From positions 1 through 64,000 of the forward strand of contig NZ_VMNX01000011.1 in NCBI RefSeq assembly GCF_009377235.1: DNA of 64,000 bases, read 5' to 3'. The notes under the pieces are model-generated. The model saw only the letters and a program-made list of their open reading frames with translations. It ran no database searches and had not been told where the DNA came from. Positions within the stretch are counted from its first letter, which is position 1. The number at the start of each line of letters is the position of its first letter. Source of the stretch: Streptomyces acidicola (GTDB lineage Bacteria; Actinomycetota; Actinomycetes; Streptomycetales; Streptomycetaceae). Made by a program: the position numbers and the translations under genes. This document shows, in pieces, positions 1-24,142 of this stretch.

Positions 1-94
1 CTCCCGTACAAGCTCCTCCCCCACACCGGCTCGACACCTCCCCGCGGGGCTGACGCCCCGATGCGCACGCCGAGACCACGCAAGGAGGCCGATG

Positions 95-1438: not shown

Positions 1439-2327
1439 GCCACCGGTCCAGCCCGTGAGCTCCCGCAGGCGCAGTCCGTATCGCGGCTACGTGTACGTGC
1501 TGCCCGCCTTCGCCGTCTACCTCACGTTCGCGGTGCTGCCCGCCCTGCACACGGCGTACCTGTCGCTCTTCGACTGGGATGGCGTCACGCTGGGCGACTG
1601 GGTAGGCCTCGGCAACTACCGGGAGATTCTCCGGGACTCCGTCCTGCGGCGGTCCGTGTTCAACGCTCTGGTGCTGGTGGTGTTCTTCTCCTTCGTGCCT
1701 ATCGTGCTCGGGCTGACGATGACCGGCCTGCTGGGCCGTTACCGGCGGCCGGGCATGGGGACGTACCGGTTCCTGTTCATGCTGCCGCAGGTCGTTCCGC
1801 TCGTCGCGGTGGGCGTGACCTGGCGCTGGCTGTACGGGGACGACGGGCTGGTGAACCAGGCGTTCCGCGTGGTCGGCCTGGACGGCGTGACGCGGGCGTG
1901 GCTGGGCGACTTCGGCGCCGCGCTGATCGCCGTGGGCCTCGTGGGTACGTGGGTGCTCAGCGGGCTGTGCATGATGCTCTTCCTGAGCGGTGTGCAGAAG
2001 GTCGATCCCAGCCTGTACGAGGCGGCCCGGATCGACGGGGCGGGTCCCGTCCGGGAGTTCGTCTCCGTCACCCTGCCCCACCTGCGCGGCGAACTCGCCG
2101 TCGCCCTGACCGTGACCACGGTGGCCGCGCTCGCCAGCTTCGACATCGTGTACGTGACGACCAACGGCGGCCCCGGCGAGCAGACCACGGTCCCCGGCCT
2201 GCTCGTGTACCGGCTGGCGTTCTCCGAGGGCGAGGTCGGGCTCGCCGCGGCCCTGGCGGTCGTCCTCGGCTGTGTGATACTCGCGATCGTCTACCTCGTG
2301 AACCGTCTGTCGAGGTCACAGTCATGA
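1428..2327 (+). CDS. Sugar ABC transporter permease (MalF type)
   Basis: Integral membrane permease of 299 aa with about six hydrophobic segments. The EAA loop that docks the cytoplasmic ATPase is visible (YEAARIDGAGPVREF, residues about 198-212). It starts inside the end of the lipoprotein gene and its stop overlaps the next ATG, so the three genes should be translated as one coupled unit. It imports the ligand of the upstream binding protein; substrate unknown. The N-terminal RRRSPYRGYVYVLPAF stretch is typical of MalF-type partners in Streptomyces carbohydrate uptake operons. Confidence 0.9.
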   Translation: MRGRPPVQPVSSRRRSPYRGYVYVLPAFAVYLTFAVLPALHTAYLSLFDWDGVTLGDWVGLGNYREILRDSVLRRSVFNALVLVVFFSFVPIVLGLTMTGLLGRYRRPGMGTYRFLFMLPQVVPLVAVGVTWRWLYGDDGLVNQAFRVVGLDGVTRAWLGDFGAALIAVGLVGTWVLSGLCMMLFLSGVQKVDPSLYEAARIDGAGPVREFVSVTLPHLRGELAVALTVTTVAALASFDIVYVTTNGGPGEQTTVPGLLVYRLAFSEGEVGLAAALAVVLGCVILAIVYLVNRLSRSQS

Positions 2328-3151
2328 ACACAGCGACGCGATCGGAACGCTGGTCGGGTTACGCGCTCCTGACGGTCATGGCGATCGCCGTCGTGATCCC
2401 GTTCCTCAGCGTGTTCCTCGCCTCACTGCAGCCCGCGGGGACGCCGGTGGTGGGTCTGACCTGGCCGGAGCGGTGGAGCTGGGAGAACTACGAACAGGCG
2501 TGGTCGGTGGCCGGCTTCTCCGCCCTCATCCGCCACAGCCTCACCATCGCGGCCGGTGTCGTCCCCGCCTCCCTGGTCCTCGCCGCACTGGCCGGCTACG
2601 CGCTGGGGACCATGAGGCTCCCGGGCGGCAACGCGGTCGCGACGTTCTTCATCGCCGGCCTGACCATCCCGGTCGAACTGATCGTGGTTCCTCTCTACTT
2701 CGACCTGCGGGGCTTCGGTCTGACCAACTCGTACCTGGGCGTGATCCTGGTGGAGATCGCGCTGTTCATGCCGTTCAGCGTGTTCTGGATGCGCACCCAC
2801 TTCCGGTCCACCCCCGCGTCGCTGGTGGAGGCGGCGCGTATCGACGGCGCCTCGTCGGCCACGATCCTGCTGAGGATCCTGCTCCCGCTGGCCCGCCCGT
2901 CCCTGATGACGCTCGGTCTGCTGGTGTTCATGTGGTCGTGGAACCAGTTCCTGCTGGTGCTGGTCCTCATCCAGGACACCACCAAGCACACGGCACCCGC
3001 CGGGCTCGGCTTCTTCGTCGGTCAGAACAGCACGGACATCCCCACGCTGGCCGCGGGGACGATCATCGTGATGCTCCCCATCCTGATCCTCTTCGTGATC
3101 TTCCAGCGCAGCTTCATCGCGGGACTGCTCCAGGGAGCGATGAAGGGCTGA
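2324..3151 (+). CDS. Sugar ABC transporter permease (MalG type)
   Basis: Second permease subunit, 275 aa, pairing with the preceding one. ATG at 2324 overlaps the previous stop (ATGA). The EAA loop reads VEAARIDGASSATILLRILLP, and the C-terminal GLLQGAMKG ending is typical of MalG-type permeases. Six membrane segments are apparent. The gene converges on the oleD-like gene with only 54 bp between them, and I see no strong terminator there. Confidence 0.9.
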   Translation: MNTATRSERWSGYALLTVMAIAVVIPFLSVFLASLQPAGTPVVGLTWPERWSWENYEQAWSVAGFSALIRHSLTIAAGVVPASLVLAALAGYALGTMRLPGGNAVATFFIAGLTIPVELIVVPLYFDLRGFGLTNSYLGVILVEIALFMPFSVFWMRTHFRSTPASLVEAARIDGASSATILLRILLPLARPSLMTLGLLVFMWSWNQFLLVLVLIQDTTKHTAPAGLGFFVGQNSTDIPTLAAGTIIVMLPILILFVIFQRSFIAGLLQGAMKG

Positions 3152-3205
3152 CCCCGCACACGGCCTGCACGCACGGAGGTGCTCCTGGATGGAGGTGGGC
3201 GGTGC

Positions 3206-4318
3206 TCACTTGTCGGTGGGGTTCCAGGGGCCGGCGAACTCGGCGAGGGCCCGGTTCAGGATCTCTGGGCGTCCTGAGGTGTGGGCCAGTTCGCGGAGGC
3301 CGTCGACGAGGCCGACGGGCGGTGTGAATCCGAGGTCCCGTCTGGCGGCGGTGATGTCGAACCAGTGCGGGTGCGTGAGTTCGTTCACCAGGAAGCGGCT
3401 GAGCGTGTGTGTACGGGCGGAGCCGGTGAAACGGGCGACCGCCTCCTGGACGGTGGCGGCGCCGTGCGCGAGGGCCGGCGGGACGGAGTGCCATGCGGCG
3501 CGGATTCCGGTCGCCGCCAGGTAGAGGGTGGCCATGCCGGCGAGCGGGCAGGGCTCGCCCTGGGCGATGAAGTAGGCGCGCCCGTTGACGGGCCCTCCCC
3601 GGTGGAGGCGGTCGAGGGCGAGCAGGTGGGCGTGGGCGGCCGTGCGCAGGTGGGTGGTGTCGACGAGGTTGGTTCCCCTCCCCGGCATGATCAGGTGGCG
3701 GCCGCGGGCCGCACGGGTCAGGGCGGGCAGGAAGTGCGGGTCGTCGGGCCCCCAGATGAGGTGGGGGCGAAGGGAGACGGTGGCCAGGTCGGAGCTGTCC
3801 GCCCGCAGGACGAGCGCTTCGGCGCGCGCCTTGCTCAGCGGATAGGCGGCCAGGTGTCGCTCGGGGTAGGGGGCGCGTTCGTCGGCGTTCTCCAGGCCGC
3901 CGGTGCGGAAGACGACGCTGGCGGTCGAGGTGTACACGAGGGTGCGGACACCGTGGGCGCGGCACTGGTCGAGGATGTTGCGTGTGCCGTCCACGTTGGT
4001 CGTCCAGTACGGTCGCAGAGGGCCGCTGACTCCGGCCAGGGCCGCGTTGTGGATGACGGCGTCACATCCGGTGACCGCCTTCCCGACCGCGTCCGCGTCG
4101 GCGAGGTCGCCCAGGTGCTGGCGGACGCCGAGCCGGTCCAGGGCGGTGCTGGGGCGGCGGCTGAGGGAGGCGGTCTCGGTGCCGCGCCCGACGAGTTGAC
4201 GGCAGATCTCCGCACCGAGGAACCCGCTGCCACCTGTGACGAGAACCCTTTGCGGTCGGGCTCCTTGTGGCCCACATCCTTGTGGGCCGGCTCCTTGTGG
4301 TCCAACTGGTCCGGTCAT
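3206..4318 (-). CDS. oleD: OleD-like NAD(P)-dependent 3-beta-hydroxysteroid-dehydrogenase family reductase
   Basis: Extended short-chain dehydrogenase, about 370 aa. The Rossmann motif VTGGSGFLG follows a short N-terminal tail, and the YPLSK active-site motif (Y-x-x-x-K) lies mid-protein with an upstream Ser in VYTSTAS. In olefin and beta-lactone pathways OleD reduces the 2-alkyl-3-keto acid from OleA to the 2-alkyl-3-hydroxy acid used by OleC. The frame is open to 4519, but ATG 4318 overlaps the oleC stop (ATGA) and places the Rossmann motif normally, so I chose it. The N-terminus has a collagen-like repeat (GPQGA units) absent from the family core. Last gene of the leftward oleABCD order. 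The assignment rests on the four-gene context plus motifs. Confidence 0.82.
   Translation of the reverse strand: MTGPVGPQGAGPQGCGPQGARPQRVLVTGGSGFLGAEICRQLVGRGTETASLSRRPSTALDRLGVRQHLGDLADADAVGKAVTGCDAVIHNAALAGVSGPLRPYWTTNVDGTRNILDQCRAHGVRTLVYTSTASVVFRTGGLENADERAPYPERHLAAYPLSKARAEALVLRADSSDLATVSLRPHLIWGPDDPHFLPALTRAARGRHLIMPGRGTNLVDTTHLRTAAHAHLLALDRLHRGGPVNGRAYFIAQGEPCPLAGMATLYLAATGIRAAWHSVPPALAHGAATVQEAVARFTGSARTHTLSRFLVNELTHPHWFDITAARRDLGFTPPVGLVDGLRELAHTSGRPEILNRALAEFAGPWNPTDK
4258..4312. repeat. Four 15-bp tandem units encoding the OleD N-terminal Gly-Pro-Gln repeat
   Basis: The oleD start region is built of about four imperfect 15-bp units translated as VGPQ/AGPQ/CGPQ/ARPQ with intervening Gly. 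It sits right at the oleC/oleD overlap. It looks like slipped-strand expansion and adds a flexible tail before the Rossmann fold. Confidence 0.6.
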
Positions 4319-5913
4319 CGCACCCGCTTCAGTCGTCCGGCGGCCCACGCGGCGAGTCGCTCCCGGTCGATCTTGGAGTTGTGCCGGATGTCGGTCGGGA
4401 AGCCCGGGTGGACGAGTACGGCTCCGACGTGGTGTCCGTCCGGATGCCGTCGCAGCGTCAGGTGCAGTTCGCGCAGGACGTCTTGTGGGTCGCCGCCGTC
4501 GCGGTTCAGTTCTACGCACAGCACCGCCTCTTGGTGTCCGAGGGCTCCGACGCCCACCAGTGCCGTGCGCCGGACGCCCGGCGTGCTGTCGGCCGTCGTC
4601 TCGACGCCCTCGGTCGGCAGGGCGAATCCGGCGCCGGTCACCTGCTGGGACTTACGGCCGTGGAACCACAGCCGACCGTCCTCGTCGAGCCGCCCCAGAT
4701 CGCCAGTGCGGTGGAGCAGGCCCCCGGAGGCCTGGACCTTGGTTGCGGCCGTCGCCTCGGGGCGGGCGTGGTACGCGGGGCTGACGTTGGGTCCGGCGAC
4801 GGCGATCTCGCCCACGCCGGAGCGATCCTCGTCCAGGATGCGCGCCTGAACCGCGGGCAGGGGACGGCCGAGGCAGGTCCCGGCTCGTACCGTCCGGCCG
4901 ACGGCGCCTGCCGCGCACCGCAGTTCGGGAGCGCTGATCGCGCTGACCGGCAGGCACTCCGTGGCTCCGTACACGCTGAGCACCTCGGCGTCCGGCCGCA
5001 GTACCGCGTGCAGGGCATCGGCGAGCCCGGCGCGCAGCGGCGCTCCGAAGGAGACGACGCGGTCGACCGAGGGCAGGGTCAGCCGACGGCGGACACAGTG
5101 CTCGGCGAGCAGCCCCAGTACGGCCGGCGACGCCGCGACCACCGAGGCCTGGTGCTCCAGCAGAGGTCTCAGCAGGCGTTCGGGCGGTGTGCGCGCCGGG
5201 GAGCGGTGGCTGACGGCGGGCGCGAGTGTCGTCAGGCCCAGCGCCGGGCCGAGGAGGACGAAGGGCAGGAAGCCGGCGAGCAGAACGTCGCCCGGTCGTG
5301 GTGCGAGGACCGGGCCGAGGGCGTCGAGCTGACCGGTCAGGGTGCTGTAGCGGTACTCCGCCCCCTTGGGCACCCCGGTGGAGCCGGAAGTGAAGGCGAT
5401 CATCGCCAGGTCCCCCGGGGGCGGTTCCTCCAGCTCCCAGGCCGGTCCGTCCGTGTCCGGCACCGTCACGGGCAGCCCGCGTCCGAGCCCGGGAACAGCC
5501 CGGCCGGTGACCAGGGGAAGGCGTACGTGCCCGCGGGCCCAGCCCAGCACGCGGCGTGCCAGATGCGCCAGGGGCTCACCGACGAACGCCTCCGGCGCCA
5601 CCTCGTCGAGGCACGCGCGCAGCTGGGGCCGGGGCAGCCCCGGATCCACCAGGACCGGCACGGCGCCGACGGCGAACAGCCCGTAGACGAGGGTGAGCAG
5701 CTCGTACGGGTCCCGCGTCATCGTCACGGCCTTGTGCCCGCGGCGGAGCCCGGCGTCATGGAACGCCTCGGCCGTGCGGCGGCAGCCTTCGTGGAGCTGA
5801 GCGAAGCTGATGACGTGGCCGGATCCGTCGCTACGGCCCCGCACCAGCGCCGTTGCTCGTGGCCGTTGCTCGACCAGGCGCGCCATGCGCGCGTAGAGGC
5901 CAGGACTGTCCAC
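4315..5913 (-). CDS. oleC: OleC-like AMP-forming ligase (beta-lactone synthetase)
   Basis: ANL-superfamily adenylating enzyme, 532 aa. The phosphate-binding motif TSGSTGVPKG lies near residue 175, followed by YGATE, the HRTGDLGRLDEDGRLWF hinge and a C-terminal Lys in NSKIDRERL. In Ole systems OleC activates the 2-alkyl-3-hydroxy acid with ATP and closes the beta-lactone rather than making a CoA ester. The closest alternative is a fatty-acyl-CoA or fatty-acyl-AMP ligase; placement between OleB-like and OleD-like genes argues for beta-lactone synthetase. GTG start at 5913, four bases after the oleB stop. Confidence 0.82.
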   Translation of the reverse strand: MDSPGLYARMARLVEQRPRATALVRGRSDGSGHVISFAQLHEGCRRTAEAFHDAGLRRGHKAVTMTRDPYELLTLVYGLFAVGAVPVLVDPGLPRPQLRACLDEVAPEAFVGEPLAHLARRVLGWARGHVRLPLVTGRAVPGLGRGLPVTVPDTDGPAWELEEPPPGDLAMIAFTSGSTGVPKGAEYRYSTLTGQLDALGPVLAPRPGDVLLAGFLPFVLLGPALGLTTLAPAVSHRSPARTPPERLLRPLLEHQASVVAASPAVLGLLAEHCVRRRLTLPSVDRVVSFGAPLRAGLADALHAVLRPDAEVLSVYGATECLPVSAISAPELRCAAGAVGRTVRAGTCLGRPLPAVQARILDEDRSGVGEIAVAGPNVSPAYHARPEATAATKVQASGGLLHRTGDLGRLDEDGRLWFHGRKSQQVTGAGFALPTEGVETTADSTPGVRRTALVGVGALGHQEAVLCVELNRDGGDPQDVLRELHLTLRRHPDGHHVGAVLVHPGFPTDIRHNSKIDRERLAAWAAGRLKRVR

Positions 5914-5917
5914 GGCG

Positions 5918-6949
5918 TCACGCCCGAAGCAGGAAGTCGCGGACGTGCCGGTCGAGTTCCCCGGCGGCGTCCTCCATCACGAAGTGGCCGGCGTTCCGGT
6001 AGCGGTGTACGCGGGCCTGCGGAAACCGGCGGGTCCATTCGTCCAGCACGGGGGGCGTGAACACGGGGTCCCGCATACCCCAGCCGATGAACGTCGGCAG
6101 ACCGGCAAGGCCGCCGCCGACGAGGCCGCCGCCGACGTCAGCAGGTCCGGCCTCGGCAGGTCCGGCCTCAGCGGCTCCGGCCCCGGCAGGTTCGAGCAGT
6201 CGCCATGCCGGGTCGTCGCCGCCCCGGGGAATGCACCGGATGAACTCCACGACGGTGCGGCGGTTCTGTGCGTCGGCGAAGGGCAGCAGGTACGCCAGCC
6301 GCTCGGCCGAGCCGAGCCGTCGTACGACTCCGAGCCGTACGGCGGCGCGGGGAAAGACGTTGGTGGCCCGCGCGAGGGCGGCGACAGGGGCACTGTCCCT
6401 GATCCACCTCAGATACACCGGTAGCCGGTAGCCGACGGGCCACGGGAAGGCCACGCTGTTGAGGACGACCAGCCGTGCCACCACGCCGGGGTGGCGCAGC
6501 GCCCACGCGATGCCGATCGGGCCGCCCCAGTCGTGCACCACCAGGGTCCATCGGTGGGCGGGCACCCCCTGGCTGCCGGTGAGGTGGTGGAACAGGTGGT
6601 CCAGACACGCGATGTGCAGTTCAAGGCGGTCCACGGGCCCCAGCGCTCCGGGGGAGCCGGTCCCCTGCGGTACCCCGGAGCGGGGGGACAGGCCGAGTCC
6701 CGCAAGGTCGGGGGCGATGCAGCGGAAGTTTGGTGACAGGGTGCCCAGCAAACTCCGCCAGATGTAGCTCCAGGACGGGTTGCCGTGCAGGAACAGCACC
6801 GGGTCGCCGGAGCCGGCATCGACGTAGTGCTGCTCCGTGACGGGAACCTGTCGCCAGTGGCTGGGGCCGGGGTAACCGGGAAGGGCTCGCGCCGACCGCG
6901 TCGGCGGGGCGGCGCCGTGGCGGCGCGTTCCCCTGTCCCCCATGCTCAC
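5918..6949 (-). CDS. oleB: OleB-like alpha/beta hydrolase (beta-lactone decarboxylase, haloalkane-dehalogenase fold)
   Basis: Alpha/beta hydrolase, about 343 aa. The oxyanion motif HGNPSWS is near residue 55. The nucleophile elbow VVHDWGG carries Asp instead of Ser, as in haloalkane dehalogenases and OleB. A GMRDPVF acid region and NAGHFVMED catalytic His follow. OleB converts the cis-beta-lactone from OleC to a cis-olefin and CO2. GTG at 6949 overlaps the oleA stop (GTGA); ATG 6943 is an alternative. Just before the GMRDP strand is an Ala/Gly-rich insertion with AEAGPAEAGPA repeats, probably a local expansion. Its presence favours an olefin end product, unlike lipstatin-type clusters, which lack OleB. 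Confidence 0.82.
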   Translation of the reverse strand: MSMGDRGTRRHGAAPPTRSARALPGYPGPSHWRQVPVTEQHYVDAGSGDPVLFLHGNPSWSYIWRSLLGTLSPNFRCIAPDLAGLGLSPRSGVPQGTGSPGALGPVDRLELHIACLDHLFHHLTGSQGVPAHRWTLVVHDWGGPIGIAWALRHPGVVARLVVLNSVAFPWPVGYRLPVYLRWIRDSAPVAALARATNVFPRAAVRLGVVRRLGSAERLAYLLPFADAQNRRTVVEFIRCIPRGGDDPAWRLLEPAGAGAAEAGPAEAGPADVGGGLVGGGLAGLPTFIGWGMRDPVFTPPVLDEWTRRFPQARVHRYRNAGHFVMEDAAGELDRHVRDFLLRA

Positions 6950-8019
6950 AGCCGGATCACCGCCAGCCCCACGCTGAACCCGCTGGCCATGCCGATCAGC
7001 GCGACGGTGTCACCCGGCTCGACGCGGTCGCTCTCCAGCGCGGAGACCAGTTGCAGCGGCAGCGACGCGGACGCCGCGTTGCCGTGCTCGGCCACGGTGG
7101 GCAGACAGCGGTCGGGCGGCAGACCGAGTTGCTCGATCGTCTCGTGGAACTGCGGCATGGAGATCTGGTGGAAGGCGACGAACGCGCTCCGGCGCACCAA
7201 CTCCAGCTCCGCGGCGGCGCGTTCGAGCACCAGGGGCAGGATGCCGATGGCGGCGTCGCGCAACCGGTCGTCGTTGAGGCGCACATAGGTGGGTTCCGGG
7301 CTGGTGGGGCGGTAGTGCATGGTGCCGCCCGCCTCCACGACACAGCGGTCCCAGGCGGTGGAATCGGCGGTGAAGGCCGTGGTGAGCACCCCCGGTCCGT
7401 CGTCGGTGGCGGGGACCGCCGTCAGCAGTACGGCGGCGCCCGCGTCGGAGAGCGTGTATCCGGGCAGGGCCCGCAGGAAGGCGTCGTGATCGGGCACGGT
7501 CCAGCGGGTGGTCATGGTGGGCGCTTCACCGGAGGTGATCAGTACGGTCCGGTAGCGGCCGGATTCGATGAACGCGGCGGCGACCTCCAAGCCGTTGAGC
7601 ACGCTGTTGCAGGCGTTCTTCACATCGAACACCGGGCAGCCGGCGCCCAGTTTGGCGGCCACGATGTGCGCGGTGGCCGGTTCGATGAGGTCCTGGGTGC
7701 AGGAGGTGAACAGCACGAGATCGATGTCGTCGATGCCCAGCCCGGCGGCGGCCAGGGCTTTCGCGGCTGCCGCGACGGCGAGGTCGGAGGCCTGTTCCCG
7801 GTCACCTCTCTCGTGGACCCCGCGCACCCCGGTGAGGTCCTCCAGCAGGCCGGACGGTGGCACATAAGGACTGCCCAGGGCGGCGATGCGCGCCCGGGCG
7901 TCCTCCATGGTGCGGTACGCGGGGGGTAGATGGACGGCGGTGGTCACCAACTGGGCACGTACGGCGGAAAGCACGCGGATCACGGTAGGGCCGACGGTGC
8001 CAACTCGCCCCTCTTGCAC
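6946..8019 (-). CDS. oleA: OleA-like thiolase / ketoacyl synthase III (head-to-head acyl condensation)
   Basis: Thiolase-fold condensing enzyme, 357 aa. Active-site Cys lies in VKNACNSVLN, His in AFHQISM and Asn in EHGNAASAS: the Cys-His-Asn set of KASIII/OleA. OleA joins two activated acyl chains through a non-decarboxylative Claisen reaction to a 2-alkyl-3-keto acid. GTG start with GAGGTGA about 8 bases upstream. It is divergent from the type I PKS across a 200-bp promoter region with four direct repeats, so the two are probably co-regulated. A plain FabH is less likely given the oleBCD neighbours. Whether one acyl donor is the PKS-bound chain is inference. Confidence 0.85.
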   Translation of the reverse strand: MQEGRVGTVGPTVIRVLSAVRAQLVTTAVHLPPAYRTMEDARARIAALGSPYVPPSGLLEDLTGVRGVHERGDREQASDLAVAAAAKALAAAGLGIDDIDLVLFTSCTQDLIEPATAHIVAAKLGAGCPVFDVKNACNSVLNGLEVAAAFIESGRYRTVLITSGEAPTMTTRWTVPDHDAFLRALPGYTLSDAGAAVLLTAVPATDDGPGVLTTAFTADSTAWDRCVVEAGGTMHYRPTSPEPTYVRLNDDRLRDAAIGILPLVLERAAAELELVRRSAFVAFHQISMPQFHETIEQLGLPPDRCLPTVAEHGNAASASLPLQLVSALESDRVEPGDTVALIGMASGFSVGLAVIRL

Positions 8020-8101
8020 GGCTTTTCACCTCAACGACGGAAGAGGTGATCAAAGAGGCGAATAGCTGCTTGCCTCCTGCTTGGGCACGCTTTGGGGGAC
8101 C

Positions 8102-8159
8102 GGGCTTTTGACGAGGCCCCTGACGGGCCTTTCACGGGGCCGTTGACCGGGCCTTTGAG
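8102..8159. promoter_or_regulatory. Four 11-bp direct repeats in the divergent oleA/PKS promoter
   Basis: Copies read GGGCTTTTGAC (8102), GGGCCTTTCAC (8125), GGGCCGTTGAC (8137) and GGGCCTTTGAG (8149). The last three are exactly 12 bp apart and the first is 23 bp away, so all lie on roughly one helical face spacing. They sit between the oleA start and the PKS start and are a candidate binding array for a regulator controlling both directions. No regulator gene lies in the cluster itself. Confidence 0.5.
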
Positions 8160-8221
8160 GGGACTTCACCTGGGGTTCGCAGCCGGTCGACCACTGCGTA
8201 CGTGAACGAGCAAGAGGGGGA

Positions 8222-11200
8222 GTGTCCATGGGGCAGGGTGACGAGGCCGTCGCCGTTGTCGGTGTGGGTTGCCGACTGCCGGGCGGGCTGACGGATCTGG
8301 CCGGGCTGTGGGACGTGTTGTCGCGCGGCGAGGACATGATCGGCGAGATGCCGGAGGACCGTATGCAGCGGGCGCGCGTCGTGGACCCGGGGCCCGCGCG
8401 CGCCAACCGGAGTTACACGGCGGCCGGAGGGTTCCTCCCGGACGTCGCGGGCTTCGACGCGGGGTACTTCGGCATCGCACCGGCGGAAGCCATCCGCATG
8501 GACCCGCAGCAGCGGCTGCTGCTGGAGATGGCCGTCGAAGCGTTGGACGACGCCGGTGTTCCCGCACAGGCGCTGGCCGGTTCGTCGGCCTCGGTGTTCG
8601 TCGGCGTCTCCGAAGCTTCCTATCTGCGGCTCCAGGCCCAGGCGACGGCCGAGCTGAGCCCGTACGTGGTGAGCGGCGGAACCCTGTCGGTCATCGCCAA
8701 CCGTCTGTCGTACTGTCTGGATCTGCGCGGCCCGAGCATGGTGGTCGACACCGCATGCTCGTCCGCGCTGGTGGCGCTGGACCGTGCCTGCCGGTCTCTG
8801 CTGGACGGCACCAGCCGCCTCGCGTTCGCCGGCGGTGTGCACGTGCTCACCGGGCCGGAGGGCTTCTACGGGTTCTCGGCCGCGTCGATGCTGTCGCGGC
8901 GCGGCCGGTGCGCGGCCTTCTCCGCCGACGCGGACGGTTTCGTGCGGGCCGAGGGCGGGGGCGTCGTGGTCCTCAAACGGCTGGCCGACGCGGTGGCCGA
9001 CGGTGACCGCATCCACGCGGTGATCGCCGGCAGCGGCACCAACAGCGACGGCCGCACCATGGGCCTGGCGCTGCCCAACTCCGAGGCGCAGGAAGCGCTG
9101 CTGCGCGACGTGTACGAGCGCGCCGGAGTGGTCCCCGACGACCTGGTGTACTTCGAGGCGCACGGCACCGGGACCCCTGCCGGGGACCCGGCCGAGGCCC
9201 GGTCCGTCGGCCGGGCGCTGGGGCAGCGCCGCACCACCGGCCCGCTGCCGATCGGCTCGGTGAAGTCGAACCTCGGGCATCTGGAGCCGGCCTCCGGGAT
9301 GGCGGGACTGTTCAAGGCACTGCTCGTGCTTCGGCACGGCACGGCCCCGGCGACCCTGCACGCCCTCCCCCTGAATCCGCAGATCGACTTCGGCGGGCTG
9401 GGGCTGGCCCCGACGGTCGAGCCCGTCAAACTACCCCTGCGGCCCGGAGCCGCCGTCGGCATCAACTCCTTCGGCTTCGGCGGCGCGAACGCCCATGTCG
9501 TACTGACCGCGCCCCCCACCCCGCCACTCGCCGGGCCCGCACCCACCGGCAGGCTGCCCGTGCTGATCTCCGCGCGTTCGGCGAACGCGCTCAGCGAACT
9601 GGCCACGCGAATGTCCGCACGTCTCAGGGACGCCGCCCCCGACGAGTTCTACGACCTGGCGCACACCTCCACCCGGCGCCGCAGCGCCCACCCGCACCGC
9701 GCCGCCGTCCTGGCCGACAGCCCGGACCGGGCGGCCGACGAACTGGACGCGCTGTTCGCCGGTACACCGGCCGCCGGAGCGAGCGGCTCGGCAGCGGAAC
9801 ACGGCGCCGTGGTGTACGCGTTCACCGGCAACGGCTCCCAGTGGCCCGGCATGGCCGCCGATCTGCCGGCCGCCGAACCCGCATTCCGTTCCGCCGTCGA
9901 GGAGGCGGACGCCGCGCTCGCCCCGCACCTGGGCTGGTCGGTGGCCGGGGAACTCGCCCACCCCGATCCGGCGCGCTTCAGCCGTACCGAGGTCGCCCAG
10001 CCCGCCCTCTTCGCCGTCCAGGTGGGACTCGCCGCCCTGCTCCGCGCGAACGGGGTGCGCCCGGCGGCGGTCCTCGGGCACAGTGTCGGCGAGGTCGCGG
10101 CCGCGTACGTCGCCGGAGCTCTCACTCTCGCGCAGGCCGCGCACGTGATCGCCGAGCGCAGCTCAGCCCAGGCCGCCACCGCGGGAACCGGCCGGATGGC
10201 GGCCGTCGGACTGTCCGAGCAGGCGGCCCGTGACGTACTGGCTCGCTACGACGGCGCCCTGGAGCTGGCGGCCGTCAACAGCGACCGGGACATCACCGTC
10301 GCCGGGGACCCACGGGCGCTGGCCGCTCTCGGAGCCGAACTGAGCGCCAGGGACGTCTTCTTCCGCGAGCTGGACCTCGACCACGCCTTCCACAGCCGTG
10401 CGATGGATCCCCTCGCCGGGCCCCTGCGTACGGCCCTGGCCGGACTCACGCCCTCGGCTGCCCGTATCCCCTTCGTCTCGACCGTCACCGGCGCCCCGCT
10501 CTCCGGCGAGCAGCTGACGGCCGACTACTGGTGGCGCAACGTGCGCGAGCCGGTCCGCTTCGCCGAAGCGGCGGCCCATGCCCTCGGCGGGACACCCGGC
10601 GTGGTGGTGGAGATCGGCCCCCACCCGGTGCTGCGCCCGTACCTGCGCCGTACCGGCGCCGCTCATGTGCCCACCCTGCAACGGGACTCCACCGGTCCCC
10701 GGGACATGGCCGCGGCCGTGACGGCGGTGATCTCGGCGGGCGCCGACCTCGACTGGGCCGCCCGCTTCCCCCACCCCGCCCGGGTGGCCGACCTGCCCTC
10801 GTATCCCTGGCAGCGCCGACGGTACTGGCACGGCGAGGCCTGCGACTGGGAGCGGACCAGCGGCACCGGCCGGACGGAACACCCGCTGCTCGGCGAGCGG
10901 TTGCCCGGCCCGCATCCGACGTGGGAGACCACGGTCGAACCCCAGCTGGTGTCCTGGCTCGGCGACCACCGCGTCGACGGGGCGGTGGTGATGCCCGCGG
11001 CCGGTTACGTCGAGATGGCCCTGGCCGCCGGACGGCGGGCCCTGCACTCACCCGTCGAGGTGCGCCATCTGGAGATCACCCGGCCACTGCCCCTGCCCTG
11101 GCCCGACCCCGGCGACACGCGAGTGCAGACCAGCGTGCAGCCGGACAGCGGCGCTCTGGCCATCAGTACCAGCGAGCGGCGAGGCGAGGAGTGCCACCCG

Positions 11201-14200
11201 GTGGCCCGCGCCCAGGTGCGTACCCTGCTCGGCCGTCCTCCGGCACGGGTCGACCTGGACGCGACACGCCGTCGCTGTCCCCACCCGGTCGACAGCGCGG
11301 CCCACTACGAGGAGTGCCGACGAGCCGGACTTGCCTACGGTCCGGCCTTCCAGCTCCTGCGGAACCTGCACGTCGGCGACGGTGAAGTGCTCGCCACGTA
11401 CACGTACGACGACCCGGACGCGGCCTACGAGGTGTGGCCGGCAGTGCTGGACGCCGCGTTCCAGGCAGGCGCTCCCCTGCTGCGGAACCGGACCGCCACA
11501 GGTGATTCCTACCTGCCCTGCGGTCTGGGAAGCGTTCGCGTCTGGCGGGCGCCGGGCCCCTCGGGGGTCGTCCGGGTGCGCCAGGGTGCCGTGATCGATC
11601 CCGAGGTCTGCTGGGACATCGTGATCACCGACGAGGACGGCACCGTCGTCGTCGAGATCGACCGCCTCCGCATGCGGCGGATGCCGGGCGACCGTACACC
11701 TCTGAGCGTCCAGCAGACCGTCCTGCGAGCCGCCCCCGGCCCCGGTGACCACGGCGACGCCGCCGCCGTTCCTGTACCCGCCGACCTCGTCGAAGCCGCT
11801 CACGGTCGGATCACACAGCTGCGACAGGCGTGGCAGGCATCCGGCTGTGATCACTTCGCCGCGGCTGCCGACCGCGCGATCGCGCACCGCTGGGCGACGG
11901 CCCTGGCCGGCCTGCTGGGTGAACCCGCCCGGCCGTTCACCACCGGGGATCTCGTCGCGGCAGGCCTGCTGCACCGGCACCGCCGCCTGCTCAAGGTCAT
12001 GCTTCCCCTGCTTGAGCAGCAGGGCGTGGTCAGCGGCCTCCCCGACGGAAGGTGGGAGCTGACCGGGACAGCGCGACGCGACGCGGAGCTGTCGGCCGCG
12101 CTGCTCACCGATCACCCGGCCTTCGCGGCCGACGCGAGCCTGCTCACCCGCCAACTGCACCACCTGCCCGGCCTGCTGACCGGCGCCACCGGTCCTCTCC
12201 AGTTGCCGTCGGCCGACCCGACACGCCATCAGCACTTCTACGACCTCAGTCCCCGGAGCCGCTTCGGCAACCTGACGGTCCGGTGTGTACTGGAGGAGAT
12301 CATCCGGCACTGGCCGGCCGACCGACCGCTGCGTGTACTGGAGATCGGCGCGGGCACGGGTGGTCTCACCGCTGCCGTCCTCCCGGTGCTGCCGGCCGAC
12401 CGCACCCGCTACACCTTCACCGACGTCTCGGCCGCCGTCCTCGGCCCCGCCGAACACCGGTTCAGCGCCTACGACTTCGTCGACTACCGCACGTTCAGCC
12501 TGGACACCGGGACCGACGGGAAGGAGCTGCCCGAGGCCGGGTTCGACGTCGTCCTGGCCGCAGGCGCCCTGCATACCGCCGCCGATCTGACCGAGGGCCT
12601 CCGCCGGGCCAGGCGGCTACTGGCTCCCGGCGGCCGGCTGCTCGCCGTCGAGTCGCACGATCCGGCCCGCCTCGCCGCGGTCTTCGGGAGCCTCGACAGC
12701 TTCTGGCGCCGCAGCGACCACGCACTACGCCCCGACGGTCTCCTGCTGCGGCGCGATCAGTGGCCGCCGCTACTGGAACGGTGCGGCTTCACCGGTGTGG
12801 TCCGCACCGGGCCCGACACCGATGCCGGGACGGCCGACCTGTCCGACCTGTCCGTCCTGGTGGCCGGCGTGGACGACCGTACGGCCCCGCCGCCCCAGGC
12901 CCTCGCGGCACCGGCCCCCGGAACCGTGTGGAGGGTCGGTGCCGAGGCCCCGTCCGAAGAGCCGCTGGCCCGGGCCCTGGCCGAAGTGCTGGGCGGCGCC
13001 ACGGTCACCGATCTGGAGGGGCTCAGCGGACCGGCCGAACCCGGAGCGGAGGAAGTGGCCACCGTGCTGGTGCTCGGGGAACCCGAGGAGCACCCCGACC
13101 GCATCGTCGGGCAGACCACCCGCAGAGCAGCCGCACTGCGTGCTCTCGCCGCAAGCAGCGCACGTCTGCCGGGCGGCACCCGCGCCTCCGTCTGGCTGGT
13201 CACCCGTCCCAGCGGCCTGCTGCCCGCCCCCGAACGCCCGGCCCACCCCGGCGACGCTCCTGTGTGGGGCGCCGCGCGCACCCTGGCGAACGAATGGCCC
13301 GACCTGACGGTGCGCCGGATCAGCCTCGACCGCTGTGACGACCCGCCCTCCGACGCCCGGCGCCTCGCGCAGGAACTGCTCAGCCCTTGCGACGAGGACG
13401 AGATCGTACTCACCCGCGGCGGCCGTTTCGTCGCCCGCGAAACCGGCCGCCCCGCGCACGAACCGGCAGCCACGGCACAAGCAGTCACTGCCCCGGCCCA
13501 CTCCTTCGCCTTGGCAGTCCGCGACCCCGGCCTGTCCTACCGGCTCCTCTGGCAGCAGCGCCCCGCTCCCCGCCCCGGTCCGGGCCAGATCGTCATCGAG
13601 GTCAAGGCTGCGGCCCTGAACTACCGCGACACCATGCGGGCCAACGGCCTGCTGCCCGCCGAGGCAGTCGAGGGCACCCCCACGGAACACGGGCTGGGCA
13701 TGGAGTGCGCGGGCGTCGTCACCGACATCGGACCGGGGACCACCACGTGGGCACCCGGCGACCGGGTCTTCGGCCTGGCGGCCGCGGCGCTCGCCTCGCA
13801 CGCCGTCGCCGACGCGGGGGCGGTCGGCCGTGTCCCGGACGGCATGAGCTTCGCGGAGGCGGCCACCCTGCCCGTCGTCTTCGCCACCGTCCACTACAGC
13901 CTCGCCCAGTTGGCGCGGCTCGCTCCCGGAGAGACCCTCCTGGTGCACGGCGGTGCCGGCGGCGTCGGTCTGGCCGCCCTGCAGTACGCCCGCCGGCACG
14001 GAGCGCAGGTGATCGCCACGGCGGGCAGTGACGCCAAGCGTGATCTGCTGGCCGCTCTCGGCGTCGAACACGTCCTGGACTCCCGCTCGCTGGACTTCGT
14101 GCCCCGCGTTCGCGAACTGACCGGCGGCCGGGGCGTCCACGTCGTGGTGAACTCGCTCAGCGGTGAGGCGGGCGACCGCAGTCTGGAACTGCTGCGCCCC

Positions 14201-15685
14201 GGCGGACGGTTCATCGAGCTCGGCAAGCGGGACATGTTCGAGAACCGGCCTCTGCCCCGGCGTCCCTTCCTGGACCACATCGCCTACTTCGGCGTCGACA
14301 TCACCAGGCCCCTGGCCGACCCCGACGCCGCGAAGGAACTCCTGAGGGAGATCGTCGGCCTCGTACACGCCGGGGACTACCGGCCGTTGCCGCACGTCGT
14401 CCATCCCGCGGCCCGCGTGGAGGAGGCGTTCCGGCTGCTTCAGCACTCCCATCACACCGGCAAAGTCGTCGTCGCCTTCGATCCGTTGGACGAACCCGTC
14501 CCCGTGCGTCACACACGGGTACCCGCGGCACTGGACCCCGACGGTACGTATCTGGTCACCGGTGGTCTGGGCGGCTTCGGTGCGGCCACCGCCGCCTGGC
14601 TGGCCGACCAAGGTGCCCGCCACCTGGCTCTGGTCGGCCGCCGCGGGGCCGAAGCTCCCGAAGCGGCCGCGTTCGTCGACCGGCTCACGCGGCGCGGCAT
14701 CACCGCCACCCCCTACGCCGCCGACGTCACCGACGAGGCCGCCGTACGCCGGGTGTTCGCTGCCGTGGACGCCACCGGGCACCCGCTGCGCGGGGTGGTC
14801 CACGGCGCCATGCACCTCGACGACGCCCCCCTCAGCGACCTGACGGACGACCGTTTCGCGGCCGTACTCTCCCCGAAGGCAGCCGGCGCCGCCGTCCTGC
14901 ACCGGCTCACCGCCGACCGCGATCTGGACCTGTTCCTGCTCCACTCCTCCGTCACGGCGTGCGTGGGCAACGTGTCCCAAGCCCCCTACGTCGCGGGAAA
15001 CAGCTACCTCGAGGCCCTGGCCCGCGCCCGCCGGCACGCGGACCGCCCCGGCACGGCCATCGCCTGGGGCGCCATCGACGGAACCGGCTACGTCGCGCGC
15101 AACGATCTGGGCGATGCCCTGTCGGCCCTCGGAATCGACCCCGTGGCCCCCGACGTGCTGCTTCCCGTCGCTGCCGGCGTCCTGGCCGAGGGTGCCGCCG
15201 TCGCCGCGATCGGGCGCTTCCGCTGGAGCCGGGCACGCCATCTGCTCCCCGCGATGGCCGCGCCACGCTTCACGCATCTCGTCCCCGCCCGGCCCGACGC
15301 CTCGGACGACACCCCGGGCGATGTGCTGCGCGCGCTGAACGCCTTGCCTCCTGACGAGGCCGCACATGCCATCACCGGCATCCTCGCCGGGTTCCTTGCC
15401 ACGGTCCTGCGCACCGAAGTCGCCGAACTCACTCCGGACCGCCCGCTGGCAGAGTTCGGCATCGACTCCCTCATGGGCGCCGAGTTCCTGGTGCGCGCCC
15501 GCGAGTACTTCGACGTCCGCCTCTCGCCGACCGAACTCCTCGGCAACTCGGGCAACCTCACCCAGCTCGCCCGCCTCATCCGGCAACGTCTGGAGCAGGC
15601 CGTACCGGCGCCACGGAAGGAGACAGAGGCGTCAGAGCAGGGCGGCCGACCGACAGCCGGTCTCACGGCAACAGCCACCGCGTAA
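8222..15685 (+). CDS. Single-module highly reducing type I PKS (KS-AT-DH-cMT-ER-KR-ACP)
   Basis: A 2487-aa PKS with one complete reducing module plus C-methyltransferase. KS about 8-430 (Cys179 in DTACSS, His314 in HGTGT, His353). AT about 528-840 (GHSVGE with Ser621; HAFH at 721-724, the malonyl-CoA signature). DH about 880-1150 (His916 in DHRVDG, Asp1077). cMT about 1210-1540 (LEIGAGTGG near 1374). ER about 1720-2040 (HGGAGGVG). KR about 2100-2290 (VTGGLGGFG; Tyr2256). ACP about 2375-2450 (Ser2416 in FGIDSLM). There is no thioesterase and no docking helix, so it probably works iteratively, as fungal highly reducing PKSs do, and needs another enzyme to release the chain. GTG 8222 or ATG 8228; a GGGGGAG box fits the ATG. 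All active-site residues appear intact. Confidence 0.93.
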   Translation: MSMGQGDEAVAVVGVGCRLPGGLTDLAGLWDVLSRGEDMIGEMPEDRMQRARVVDPGPARANRSYTAAGGFLPDVAGFDAGYFGIAPAEAIRMDPQQRLLLEMAVEALDDAGVPAQALAGSSASVFVGVSEASYLRLQAQATAELSPYVVSGGTLSVIANRLSYCLDLRGPSMVVDTACSSALVALDRACRSLLDGTSRLAFAGGVHVLTGPEGFYGFSAASMLSRRGRCAAFSADADGFVRAEGGGVVVLKRLADAVADGDRIHAVIAGSGTNSDGRTMGLALPNSEAQEALLRDVYERAGVVPDDLVYFEAHGTGTPAGDPAEARSVGRALGQRRTTGPLPIGSVKSNLGHLEPASGMAGLFKALLVLRHGTAPATLHALPLNPQIDFGGLGLAPTVEPVKLPLRPGAAVGINSFGFGGANAHVVLTAPPTPPLAGPAPTGRLPVLISARSANALSELATRMSARLRDAAPDEFYDLAHTSTRRRSAHPHRAAVLADSPDRAADELDALFAGTPAAGASGSAAEHGAVVYAFTGNGSQWPGMAADLPAAEPAFRSAVEEADAALAPHLGWSVAGELAHPDPARFSRTEVAQPALFAVQVGLAALLRANGVRPAAVLGHSVGEVAAAYVAGALTLAQAAHVIAERSSAQAATAGTGRMAAVGLSEQAARDVLARYDGALELAAVNSDRDITVAGDPRALAALGAELSARDVFFRELDLDHAFHSRAMDPLAGPLRTALAGLTPSAARIPFVSTVTGAPLSGEQLTADYWWRNVREPVRFAEAAAHALGGTPGVVVEIGPHPVLRPYLRRTGAAHVPTLQRDSTGPRDMAAAVTAVISAGADLDWAARFPHPARVADLPSYPWQRRRYWHGEACDWERTSGTGRTEHPLLGERLPGPHPTWETTVEPQLVSWLGDHRVDGAVVMPAAGYVEMALAAGRRALHSPVEVRHLEITRPLPLPWPDPGDTRVQTSVQPDSGALAISTSERRGEECHPVARAQVRTLLGRPPARVDLDATRRRCPHPVDSAAHYEECRRAGLAYGPAFQLLRNLHVGDGEVLATYTYDDPDAAYEVWPAVLDAAFQAGAPLLRNRTATGDSYLPCGLGSVRVWRAPGPSGVVRVRQGAVIDPEVCWDIVITDEDGTVVVEIDRLRMRRMPGDRTPLSVQQTVLRAAPGPGDHGDAAAVPVPADLVEAAHGRITQLRQAWQASGCDHFAAAADRAIAHRWATALAGLLGEPARPFTTGDLVAAGLLHRHRRLLKVMLPLLEQQGVVSGLPDGRWELTGTARRDAELSAALLTDHPAFAADASLLTRQLHHLPGLLTGATGPLQLPSADPTRHQHFYDLSPRSRFGNLTVRCVLEEIIRHWPADRPLRVLEIGAGTGGLTAAVLPVLPADRTRYTFTDVSAAVLGPAEHRFSAYDFVDYRTFSLDTGTDGKELPEAGFDVVLAAGALHTAADLTEGLRRARRLLAPGGRLLAVESHDPARLAAVFGSLDSFWRRSDHALRPDGLLLRRDQWPPLLERCGFTGVVRTGPDTDAGTADLSDLSVLVAGVDDRTAPPPQALAAPAPGTVWRVGAEAPSEEPLARALAEVLGGATVTDLEGLSGPAEPGAEEVATVLVLGEPEEHPDRIVGQTTRRAAALRALAASSARLPGGTRASVWLVTRPSGLLPAPERPAHPGDAPVWGAARTLANEWPDLTVRRISLDRCDDPPSDARRLAQELLSPCDEDEIVLTRGGRFVARETGRPAHEPAATAQAVTAPAHSFALAVRDPGLSYRLLWQQRPAPRPGPGQIVIEVKAAALNYRDTMRANGLLPAEAVEGTPTEHGLGMECAGVVTDIGPGTTTWAPGDRVFGLAAAALASHAVADAGAVGRVPDGMSFAEAATLPVVFATVHYSLAQLARLAPGETLLVHGGAGGVGLAALQYARRHGAQVIATAGSDAKRDLLAALGVEHVLDSRSLDFVPRVRELTGGRGVHVVVNSLSGEAGDRSLELLRPGGRFIELGKRDMFENRPLPRRPFLDHIAYFGVDITRPLADPDAAKELLREIVGLVHAGDYRPLPHVVHPAARVEEAFRLLQHSHHTGKVVVAFDPLDEPVPVRHTRVPAALDPDGTYLVTGGLGGFGAATAAWLADQGARHLALVGRRGAEAPEAAAFVDRLTRRGITATPYAADVTDEAAVRRVFAAVDATGHPLRGVVHGAMHLDDAPLSDLTDDRFAAVLSPKAAGAAVLHRLTADRDLDLFLLHSSVTACVGNVSQAPYVAGNSYLEALARARRHADRPGTAIAWGAIDGTGYVARNDLGDALSALGIDPVAPDVLLPVAAGVLAEGAAVAAIGRFRWSRARHLLPAMAAPRFTHLVPARPDASDDTPGDVLRALNALPPDEAAHAITGILAGFLATVLRTEVAELTPDRPLAEFGIDSLMGAEFLVRAREYFDVRLSPTELLGNSGNLTQLARLIRQRLEQAVPAPRKETEASEQGGRPTAGLTATATA

Positions 15686-15717
15686 GCCGACGAGACCGAA
15701 GCCGATCACAGTCGCGA

Positions 15718-15750
15718 GGCCCTGGGCGGGGCATCCACCCGCCCAGGGCC
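15718..15750 (+). terminator. Intrinsic terminator hairpin after the PKS
   Basis: Perfect 13-bp stem (GGCCCTGGGCGGG with its complement) around a 7-base loop, beginning 33 bp after the PKS stop. It separates the PKS from the short leftward genes that follow. Confidence 0.75.
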
Positions 15751-15785
15751 GCCAGAACGGCTTCCGTCGGCTCGCTCGGGGTGGC

Positions 15786-15869
15786 TCATCCCGCCAGGAC
15801 GACCGACAGGGCCGCGGCGACGATCGTGACGGCGGTCAGAGCGACCATCACCGTCCTCACCGCCCTCAC
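15786..15869 (-). CDS. Tiny membrane peptide, translationally coupled
   Basis: A 27-aa open frame starting at a GTG that overlaps the stop of the preceding 66-aa gene (GTGA). After a few Arg residues it is one long hydrophobic helix (VMVALTAVTIVAAALSVVLAG). Overlap coupling and composition suggest a real single-span peptide, but frames this short arise by chance and I do not recognise it. Confidence 0.3.
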   Translation of the reverse strand: MRAVRTVMVALTAVTIVAAALSVVLAG

Positions 15870-16066
15870 CTGTCGGCCTGCGCGAGACGCCGGAACAGTC
15901 CCAGTGGCATCGTCCGGGGCACGGGCAGACGTTTCGCGACGGTCGGCACCTGTCGGGCCACGGCGTCGGCGTCCCGCAGTTGCACGCACCACGCGCAGGT
16001 GTCCTCATCAAGGCCGGCAAGCCACTGAGCGGGGCCCGTGTCGGGGCTGTCGCCGAAGAAGTCCAT
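15866..16066 (-). CDS. Small hypothetical protein (66 aa) with CAWC motif
   Basis: Unrecognised 66-aa protein beginning MDFFGDSPDTGPAQWL, with two Cys in a C-x-x-C arrangement (TCAWCVQL). Composition is protein-like and unlike the shadow frames around it. It is divergent from glpF across about 200 bp and appears coupled to a following 27-aa membrane peptide. No clear ribosome-binding site is visible. Function unknown. Confidence 0.4.
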   Translation of the reverse strand: MDFFGDSPDTGPAQWLAGLDEDTCAWCVQLRDADAVARQVPTVAKRLPVPRTMPLGLFRRLAQADR

Positions 16067-16264
16067 GACCGTTCAACGACCCAACCGCGGCCAGGCTGTC
16101 ACAGGTCACCCGTTCGCCACACCGCTCGGACGTCACCGCGCTCCGGCGCGGGGTTGTGGCCCACCCGAACGGCCCGCCCGTGGATGCCGCTTCCGGCCGT
16201 GCCGGTGACGATTGCCGGTACGTGATCGCGATGGGCCAGGCCGACTGGACGGGAGGTGCGGAAC

Positions 16265-17095
16265 ATGCCGGCACCGACGTCGAGGGCACGTCTCATGGGC
16301 GAACTCTCGGCCGAGTTCGCCGGCACCATGATCCTCATTCTCTTCGGGTGCGGTGCCGTCGCGCAGGTCATCGCCGGCGGCGCACTGACCCACGGTGCAC
16401 TGGGTGGCCACGACAGCATCGCCTGGGGCTGGGGGCTCGGCGTCGTCATGGGCATCTATGTGGCGGCCCGGCTCAGCGGCGCCCACCTCAACCCAGCGGT
16501 CACCCTCGCGCTCGCGGCCTTCAAGGGCTTCCCCTGGTACAAGGTCCTGCCGTACTCCCTGGCCCAGACAGCGGGCGCCTTCGTAGCCGCACTGCTGGTG
16601 CGCTGGAACTACACCGAGGTGCTGGCGAAGGCCGACCCCCACCACACCGACAAGACGCAGATCGTGTTCTCCACACTGCCGGGCAACGGCGTCCTCCCCA
16701 TCAGCCAACTGGGCGCCCTGCGCGACCAGATCATCGGCACCGCCGTGCTGGTGCTGCTGATCTTCGCGGTCACCGATCTGCTGAACACGCCGCCGCAGGC
16801 GAATCTCGCCCCGTTCATCATCGGCCTGATCGTCGTCGTCATCGGCATGGGGTGGGGGACGGACGCCGGTTACGCGATCAACCCGGCCCGTGACCTCGGG
16901 CCCCGGCTGGCGTCGTTCCTGACGGGCTATGGGGGCGCCTGGCGTGACCAGTACGGCGACCTCTACTTCTGGGTGCCGATCGTCGGGCCCCTCATCGGGG
17001 GCCTGGTCGGTGCGCTGCTCTACCGCTTGCTGATCAGCCGTTACCTGCCGGTCACCGAGCAGGAACCGGGCCAAGTGCCCGCGCCGGACGAGTGA
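16265..17095 (+). CDS. glpF: Glycerol uptake facilitator (aquaglyceroporin)
   Basis: MIP-family channel, 276 aa, with both pore motifs: NPA in GAHLNPAVT and NPAR in [13 protein letters not shown]. The Asp after the second NPAR is typical of glycerol-conducting members. Six hydrophobic segments. ATG 16265 has GGGAGG at ideal spacing; the upstream GTG at 16256 lies against that box. glpK follows 16 bp later, so the pair should pass glycerol straight from channel to kinase. No glpD lies beside them. Confidence 0.92.
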
Positions 17096-17111
17096 AAGGA
17101 AAGGGGCCGCC

Positions 17112-18626: not shown

Positions 18627-18632
18627 TCGGTA

Positions 18633-18675
18633 ACCCCACAACGCACCGCGGTCGTTCAGCGGTGCGCTGTGGGGT
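18633..18675. terminator. Bidirectional terminator between glpK and the pigment operon
   Basis: A 17-bp inverted repeat (arms 18633-18649 and 18659-18675, one mismatch, 9-base loop) between two convergent genes, suited to stopping transcription from both sides. Confidence 0.75.
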
Positions 18676-18702
18676 GTGGCCGCCGGTGCGGCACTGAGAG
18701 GC

Positions 18703-19035: not shown

Positions 19036-19046
19036 CGGGGTCCCCT

Positions 19047-19797
<751 letters not shown>

Positions 19798-22740: not shown

Positions 22741-22815
22741 GTCGGTCTCCGGAGCAGGATGCGAAGGTGGGGGCAAAGGTGGGGGACGGGATGCGGCGTT
22801 CGGACGGCAGCCGGG

Positions 22816-23961: not shown

Positions 23962-24142
23962 CCGGAGCACCTCTTCCTGTGGAACGGGGCGGACCGTCGC
24001 ACCACGTGAGGGTGCGTATCGGCCGCATGGCAACGATCGTGTGTCGTGCCGTGCGGCACCGCGAACCAGGCGGGCCATGCGGGTGAACGTCCAGGCCCTC
24101 CGCCTCATGCGGCGCGGATATGCCCCGGGCATCGCCCTCTAC

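Follow-up and report, generated by a model that had tools for sequence, protein, structure and literature searches.

A single-module reducing polyketide synthase paired with the condensing enzyme OleA in Streptomyces

A single-module, highly reducing polyketide synthase (PKS) is encoded back to back with the condensing enzyme OleA in at least 33 Streptomyces genomes, and the pairing of this PKS clade with one clade of OleA proteins is long conserved and nearly exclusive. The conserved core is the PKS with OleA, to which oleBCD is an optional addition. We examined the pair in a 64,000-nucleotide stretch of Streptomyces DNA close to S. bluensis (the whole stretch is called the window here), in which oleABCD is divergent from the PKS gene across a gap of about 0.2 kb. 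We consider it reasonably probable that the five genes form a lipid cluster in which OleA offloads the PKS chain and condenses it head to head, with OleD, OleC, and OleB carrying the product to an olefin.

The five-gene cluster and its enzymes

The cluster lies between sugar ABC transporter genes on the left and genes for an MIP channel and an FGGY kinase on the right, and three blocks over window positions 38 to 19287, covering the cluster and both flanks, are 93 to 95% identical to S. bluensis DNA. Four genes are on the reverse strand: oleD (3206 to 4318; an SDR protein, predicted 2-alkyl-3-oxoalkanoate reductase), oleC (4315 to 5913; an adenylate-forming enzyme, predicted beta-lactone synthetase), oleB (5918 to 6949; an alpha/beta hydrolase, predicted beta-lactone decarboxylase, overlapping oleA by 4 bp), and oleA (6946 to 8019; a KASIII/thiolase protein, predicted non-decarboxylative head-to-head condensing enzyme). 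The open frame of oleD extends back to 4519, but the ATG at 4318, which overlaps the oleC stop, is the more likely start. Comparison with the S. bluensis frame indicates that oleA probably starts at the GTG at 7983, and the divergent intergenic region measured from there spans 7984 to 8221. The PKS gene (8222 to 15685, forward strand) starts at either the GTG at 8222 or the ATG at 8228. A promoter and terminator scan of the roughly 0.2-kb intergenic region gave no sigma-70-type match and nothing else, and an Rfam search at gathering thresholds returned no match. About 94 bp of this region (8104 to 8197) is missing in S. bluensis despite 93% identity in the flanking DNA. Elsewhere in the window, at 19815 to 24132 on the reverse strand, two adjacent ketoacyl-synthase genes and a SchA/CurD-ABM cyclase gene look like a type II PKS of the ordinary spore-pigment kind.

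The 2487-aa PKS carries one copy of each of seven Pfam domains, in the order KS (8243 to 9508, residues 8 to 429), AT (9812 to 10723, residues 531 to 834), DH (10880 to 11689, residues 887 to 1156), C-methyltransferase (cMT) core (12335 to 12640, residues 1372 to 1473), ER (13577 to 14473, residues 1786 to 2084), KR (14543 to 15079, residues 2108 to 2286), and ACP (15389 to 15580, residues 2390 to 2453), all on the forward strand. The Pfam matches include no thioesterase domain, after the ACP or elsewhere in the protein, and the surroundings of the gene showed no second type I PKS module. Pfam and NCBIfam thus confirm the architecture proposed in an earlier sequence-only reading of this DNA, namely, genes with OleA, OleB, OleC, and OleD motifs divergent from a KS-AT-DH-cMT-ER-KR-ACP PKS that lacks a thioesterase. 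This single module, with its domain motifs intact, is that of a highly reducing iterative type I PKS, although iterative use is a property that we infer from the single module.

There are 33 OleA-linked PKSs (the window's and 32 from a named collection), of which 25 could be aligned whole. Among the eight left out, L131 and L132 had a longer wrong frame (L132 also ends at a contig edge), and the other six (L135 to L138, L142, and L144) are partial or broken. Either decay or sequencing errors would account for two of the broken copies: the S. triculaminicus gene (L144, the same place as L083) is spread over two frames, and the gene of Streptomyces sp. E2N166 (L135) matches in four pieces. All 25 aligned PKSs keep the KS Cys, His, and His motifs, the AT GHSxGE and AFH motifs, the ER motif, the KR Tyr and Asn, the ACP DSL motif, and the DH His, Pro, and Asp; the Gly of the DH motif is present in 13 of the 25, including the window's. 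The window's AT reads GHSVGE and HAFH, the latter of which we take to be a malonyl-type signature. The malonyl-type rule is stated for the motif IAFH (PMC3908369). A docking tail at the PKS C terminus was considered and rejected: the tail averages 10% identity to the window's, and because it is not conserved, no docking element is seen there.

The cMT domain is the part of the PKS that varies. Its SAM motif is intact in 5 of the 25 whole-aligned linked PKSs (those of S. bluensis, S. longispororuber, S. aureocirculatus, Streptomyces sp. CB03234, and the window, where it reads LEIGAGTGG) and eroded in the other 20. Four more (L131, L132, L135, and L144), examined for this motif alone, are all eroded, bringing the counts to 5 intact and 24 eroded of 29. 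Among 20 related PKSs unlinked to OleA, the motif is intact in 19, and the exception, L228, sits inside the linked clade on the PKS tree. Decay of the motif is therefore a trait of the linked clade, one that the window's lineage, judged by its own motif, has escaped. With the motif intact in the window but eroded in most linked PKSs, we predict methyl branching for the window's lineage, where the cMT is probably active and adding methyl branches, and not for the clade. The earlier suggestion of a methyl-branched chain is accordingly plausible for this lineage only; as a clade-wide trait it was rejected.

OleA is a KASIII thiolase by Pfam, and its closest solved structures are PDB chains 3fk5, 3row, and similar entries, which we take to be OleA of Xanthomonas. 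Its presumed catalytic residues E113, C137, H284, and N314 align with the catalytic set of 3fk5/3row and are invariant in 34 rows (a count that leaves out L146). Pfam places the OleB-like protein among the alpha/beta hydrolases, and in NCBIfam it scores best against models for haloalkane dehalogenases; no OleB-specific model matched in the NCBIfam search, and the protein was assigned by type and position. Its motifs HGNP.W, HDWGGP, GWGMRDPVFT, and GH are invariant in 21 rows. OleC is an AMP-binding protein by Pfam, with NF006754 ("fatty acid CoA ligase family"; 436 bits, cut-off 478) as its best NCBIfam model and the OleC model NF045786 ranked second at 420 bits, below the equivalog cut-off of 900; its motifs (20 rows) are largely conserved, least so around residue 416. 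OleD is of the 3beta-HSD/SDR type, and its best NCBIfam model is that for OleD itself (NF042422; 327 bits, below the equivalog cut-off of 580); YP..K is invariant in 19 rows, and the OleD motifs are largely conserved. The names of the OleC and OleD equivalog models point to Xanthomonas and Shewanella enzymes. Measured against the OleABCD pathway, therefore, the cluster has an OleA with the Cys, His, Asn, and Glu set and B-, C-, and D-type proteins with their motifs, but neither OleC nor OleD reaches its curated equivalog cut-off.

Conservation of the PKS-OleA pair across genomes

Relatives of OleA are encoded at 472 loci of the named collection, of which we used the best-matching 80, several of them shortened by contig ends. 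These best 80 of 472 split into 34 loci, all from Streptomyces, with an OleA 58 to 97% identical to the window's and 46 with an OleA at 45 to 53%. An orthologous PKS (match above 250 bits) is present at 32 of the 34 and at none of the 46, 9 of which offer less than 9 kb of sequence upstream of OleA (L147 and L181 less than 300 bp). At all 32 paired loci the PKS is divergent from OleA, with 111 to 301 bp between matches, and full-length orthologs are 58 to 92% identical to the window's PKS. A draw of 392 genomes of the genus, which overlaps the named set and shares species with it, gave the same picture: 18 genomes (the window's own included) have an OleA at 59% or above, the PKS adjoins OleA in all 17 others, and oleB or oleBCD lies downstream in 12 of these 17 (one cut off at a contig end). 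A search of 394 class-level genomes gave OleA matches at E <1e-100 only within the genus, in the window's own genome, G247, and G740, the last of which (OleA 65%) is not among the loci scored for the PKS. One match fell on the BHT-5-2 plasmid, where the annotation lists no features.

Pairing in two overlapping sample sets rejects a chance neighborhood of the PKS and OleA. Synteny beyond close strains, which the sequence-only reading had set beforehand as the test of its PKS-oleA link, held. The flanking gene families are common only within small species groups, as far as noisy ORF calls by codon bias can tell (Pfam was run on chosen genes). Distances between PKSs and between OleAs correlate (Mantel r = 0.89 over 25 loci, 0 of 999 permutations), as is expected from vertical descent too.

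A KS-AT tree was built from 26 linked PKSs (the 25 aligned whole, with L144 added) and 19 unlinked ones, L239 and L244 having been removed because their matches were short or split. All 26 linked PKSs fall in one clade with support of 100/99. This clade also holds two unlinked rows, L228 (a second PKS of G243) and L162b of Streptomyces sp. ISL-11; the other 17 lie outside. In ISL-11, two clade PKSs flank OleA (L162, 2300 to 9718 and 13921 to 21009), the second about 3 kb beyond it. On the OleA tree, L143 and L146, the two paired-clade OleAs without the PKS, join the PKS-linked OleAs in a clade supported at 100/100, compared with 87/39 for the 33 linked ones by themselves. L143, from Streptomyces sp. 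Z26, has OleB-C-D-A in one direction at 6020 to 13840, with a desaturase and a FabF-type KAS replacing the PKS; within the L146 locus (ISL-96) there is no other ole gene and no PKS match. The nearest sisters of the clade are five Streptomyces OleAs that adjoin a FabF-type KAS, at loci with no match to the cluster PKS or to oleBCD, and actinobacterial OleAs lie around the clade and these sisters. In many relatives, then, the gene beside OleA is a likely acyl-chain supplier, and the PKS fits a supplier role. Of the sister loci (L147, L154, L164, L186, and L191), which we regard as a lipid cluster, L154 and L191 also encode an MMPL protein close by, and L154 has genes for an AurF-like oxygenase and an SDR as well.

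The association belongs to this clade and not to the PKS family at large. A 186-aa query from the cMT region matched in 58 of the 392 genus genomes, and 20 further PKSs were fetched, being the best-scoring unlinked places except G237:C245, which is on a short contig; two of the 20, L228 and L239, end inside the PKS at contig edges. In the 17 to 20 kb around each of the 20 there is no OleA, OleB, OleC, or OleD match above 50 bits, so the idea that this PKS family generally sits beside a KASIII was rejected (0 of 20). Beside some of these PKSs lie genes for an ALDH-P450 protein and an AMP ligase, a NAD_binding_4 reductase, or a P450, which suggests other off-loading or tailoring routes. At one such locus (L241, 13529 to 18475), a 973-aa aldehyde dehydrogenase plus P450 frame and an AMP ligase lie downstream of a related single-module PKS, and genes like this pair lie beside related PKSs in other genomes.

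The position and presence of oleBCD vary. These genes are downstream of OleA at 21 of the 32 paired loci (cut short by the contig edge in L136 and L138), OleB and OleC lie beyond the PKS in at least three (S. orinoci, S. roseoverticillatus, and ISL-11), and oleBCD was not seen at eight. Among these eight, OleC and OleD are both encoded elsewhere in the genome in four (S. longispororuber, S. griseocarneus, S. morookaense, and S. triculaminicus), UNOC14_S4 has OleD elsewhere and no OleC (E <= 1e-40), and S. aureocirculatus, CB03234, and S. netropsis, all with the PKS-OleA pair, have neither at E <= 1e-40; these eight genomes are drafts in many contigs or scaffolds, so a missing OleC or OleD may be an assembly gap. 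In S. morookaense, a contig (G243:C19, L247) carries a PKS C terminus, OleC, OleD, and two OleB-like genes, and because it starts inside the PKS C terminus, a far-side arrangement of oleBCD is suggested there. A FabF-type KAS follows oleD at 10 of the 21 oleBCD loci, is absent from 6, and would lie past the contig end in 5; there is none beside the window's cluster. Taken together, the 11 of 32 loci at which oleBCD is not directly downstream and the three genomes without OleC or OleD indicate that the pair does not always yield an olefin. We therefore rejected a fixed oleABCD-PKS unit, retaining from the earlier proposal of such a unit the link of the PKS with OleA and setting aside that with oleBCD. 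A separate locus in G214 (L104, 9857 to 19999) combines oleBCD at 61 to 66% identity to the window's set with an OleA of another kind (37%). It also encodes a FabF-type KAS, an AMP ligase, and two fatty acid desaturases, an arrangement that is perhaps a supplier swap.

Proposed pathway and alternatives

We propose that the PKS would act iteratively to build a largely reduced chain from malonyl units on its single ACP, with the cMT, probably active in the window's lineage, adding methyl branches. OleA would transfer the chain from the PKS ACP to its own Cys137 and join it to a second acyl chain in a non-decarboxylative condensation, the partner being either another PKS chain or a fatty acyl-CoA/ACP. 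The resulting 2-alkyl-3-oxo acid would be reduced by OleD and then closed to a beta-lactone by OleC, and OleB would decarboxylate the beta-lactone to an internal olefin. The acyl transfer from ACP to OleA, the partner chain, the chain length, the methyl branching, and the olefin end product are read from the gene set. OleA as the off-loading enzyme seems the simplest reading, because the PKS has no thioesterase, OleA is its sole constant partner, and the authors of the Shewanella work conclude that OleA there takes chains from Pfa ACPs. More tentatively, OleA may be an in-trans PKS release enzyme that joins two polyketide chains head to head, with oleBCD as an optional add-on for olefin formation, a ketone or other product where OleC and OleD are lacking, and the neighboring gene (KASII, desaturase, or PKS) setting the chain. 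Counting against the pathway are the scores of OleC and OleD under the NCBIfam equivalog cut-offs and the missing hit to an OleB model, the loci at which oleBCD is not directly downstream or OleC and OleD are absent at E <= 1e-40, the unconserved C-terminal tail of the PKS, the lack of an OleB match in the stretch examined around the 46 other relatives of this OleA lineage, and the clade exceptions (L143 and L146, with OleA but no PKS; L228 and L162b, with the PKS away from OleA).

The OleB question bears on the end product, which could instead be a beta-lactone, or a ketone from the beta-keto acid, with OleB a hydrolase of some other role. This OleA lineage is nested among actinobacterial OleAs whose 46 loci, within the stretch examined, show OleC in 26 and OleD in 37 but OleB in none, gene sets of this kind are predicted to give beta-lactones (PMC7064751), and the best models for the OleB-like protein are, again, haloalkane dehalogenases. 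Yet the OleB-like gene directly adjoins oleA at 21 of the 32 loci with its motifs conserved, and OleA and OleB distances correlate with r = 0.97 over 17 loci, and we regard a non-olefin product in the window as unlikely. The retention of the PKS and OleA in three genomes in which no OleC or OleD was found would also fit OleA as an initiating KASIII that makes or loads the PKS starter and does not take the finished chain, as KASIII enzymes commonly prime synthases. Such a role is improbable, however, for an OleA that retains, besides the Glu, the Cys/His/Asn residues found in OleAs that condense head to head and that is linked with oleBCD at most loci, and the 20 other family PKSs examined have no such KASIII neighbor. 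Divergent genes may be neighbors without a common pathway, and the optional nature of oleBCD would suit two independent pathways that have only a promoter region in common; this is highly improbable, given that the two clades have stayed paired almost exclusively over deep divergence amid changing flanks.

If off-loading by OleA is correct, then Streptomyces, where natural products have been heavily mined, contains a family of head-to-head lipids of polyketide origin that has yet to be described; these would be olefins, beta-lactones, or ketones, some of them methyl branched, and head-to-head condensation would join the known off-loading modes of such reducing PKSs. The roughly 33 natural pairs offer material for testing whether OleA selects among ACP partners, and their cMT domains form a series from intact to decayed.

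Comparison with known systems

The window's PKS shares the domain order of fungal highly reducing PKSs such as LovB, with the cMT between DH and ER; LovB is less similar in sequence (7cpx, 618 bits), and for the window's PKS we propose release by a separate KASIII. A closer likeness is to mycocerosic acid synthase (MAS)/Pks2, which is also single-module and fully reducing, provides the best PDB match (9d2z, 968 bits), and ranks high in NCBIfam. Unlike MAS/Pks2, the window's PKS has a cMT and the malonyl-type AT signature HAFH, which does not indicate methylmalonyl extension, and it scores 1077 against the NF041183 cut-off of 2400.

On the Ole side, the window resembles the OleABCD systems of Xanthomonas and Micrococcus in having all four enzymes with conserved motifs; those systems are supplied from the cellular pool of fatty acyl chains (PMC7064751, PMC7158056). 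The steps proposed for OleD, OleC, and OleB after the condensation are those of an established pathway (PMC6463001, PMC7064751). The oleACD-type beta-lactone clusters (lipstatin, nocardiolactone, and Actinoplanes atraurantiacus) lack both OleB and this PKS, whereas the window has an oleB-type gene at 5918 to 6949. It is the nearest OleA relatives outside the clade, the 46 loci at 45 to 53%, that resemble the oleACD type in their OleC and OleD matches, and they appear to be of that beta-lactone type, an assignment made by gene content; a P450 match lies beside OleA in L151, the one locus checked.

The nearest functional parallel is the Pfa-fed OleABCD of Shewanella and Photobacterium (polyunsaturated hydrocarbon 31:9). 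There the Pfa synthase feeds OleA, which by the conclusion of the Shewanella authors accepts chains from the ACP domains, and the two operons, ole and pfa, may lie side by side (PMC6463001). In both cases an iterative multidomain synthase would supply acyl-ACP to OleA. Pfa, however, is the multi-subunit PfaA-E giving polyunsaturated chains, in bacteria different from Streptomyces, whereas here a single 2487-aa polypeptide has a full reducing loop, a cMT, and one ACP; a Pfa-type synthase was rejected for the window on these grounds (a single ACP stretch, and 273 bits against the cut-off of 1010 for the PfaA model TIGR02813). A 2011 survey also found ole genes linked to or co-occurring with FAS/PKS-like secondary lipid synthases, some of which were suggested to feed olefin synthesis (PMC3098273), and these reports correct the sequence-only reading, which knew of no described PKS-fed Ole pathway. 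The main text of a survey of Gram-positive ole genes contains neither of the words Streptomyces and polyketide (PMC7158056), and in the open-access literature we recognized no description of a single-module reducing PKS paired with OleA in Streptomyces. Synthase-fed Ole is thus already known, and its PKS-OleA version has so far been found in one genus.
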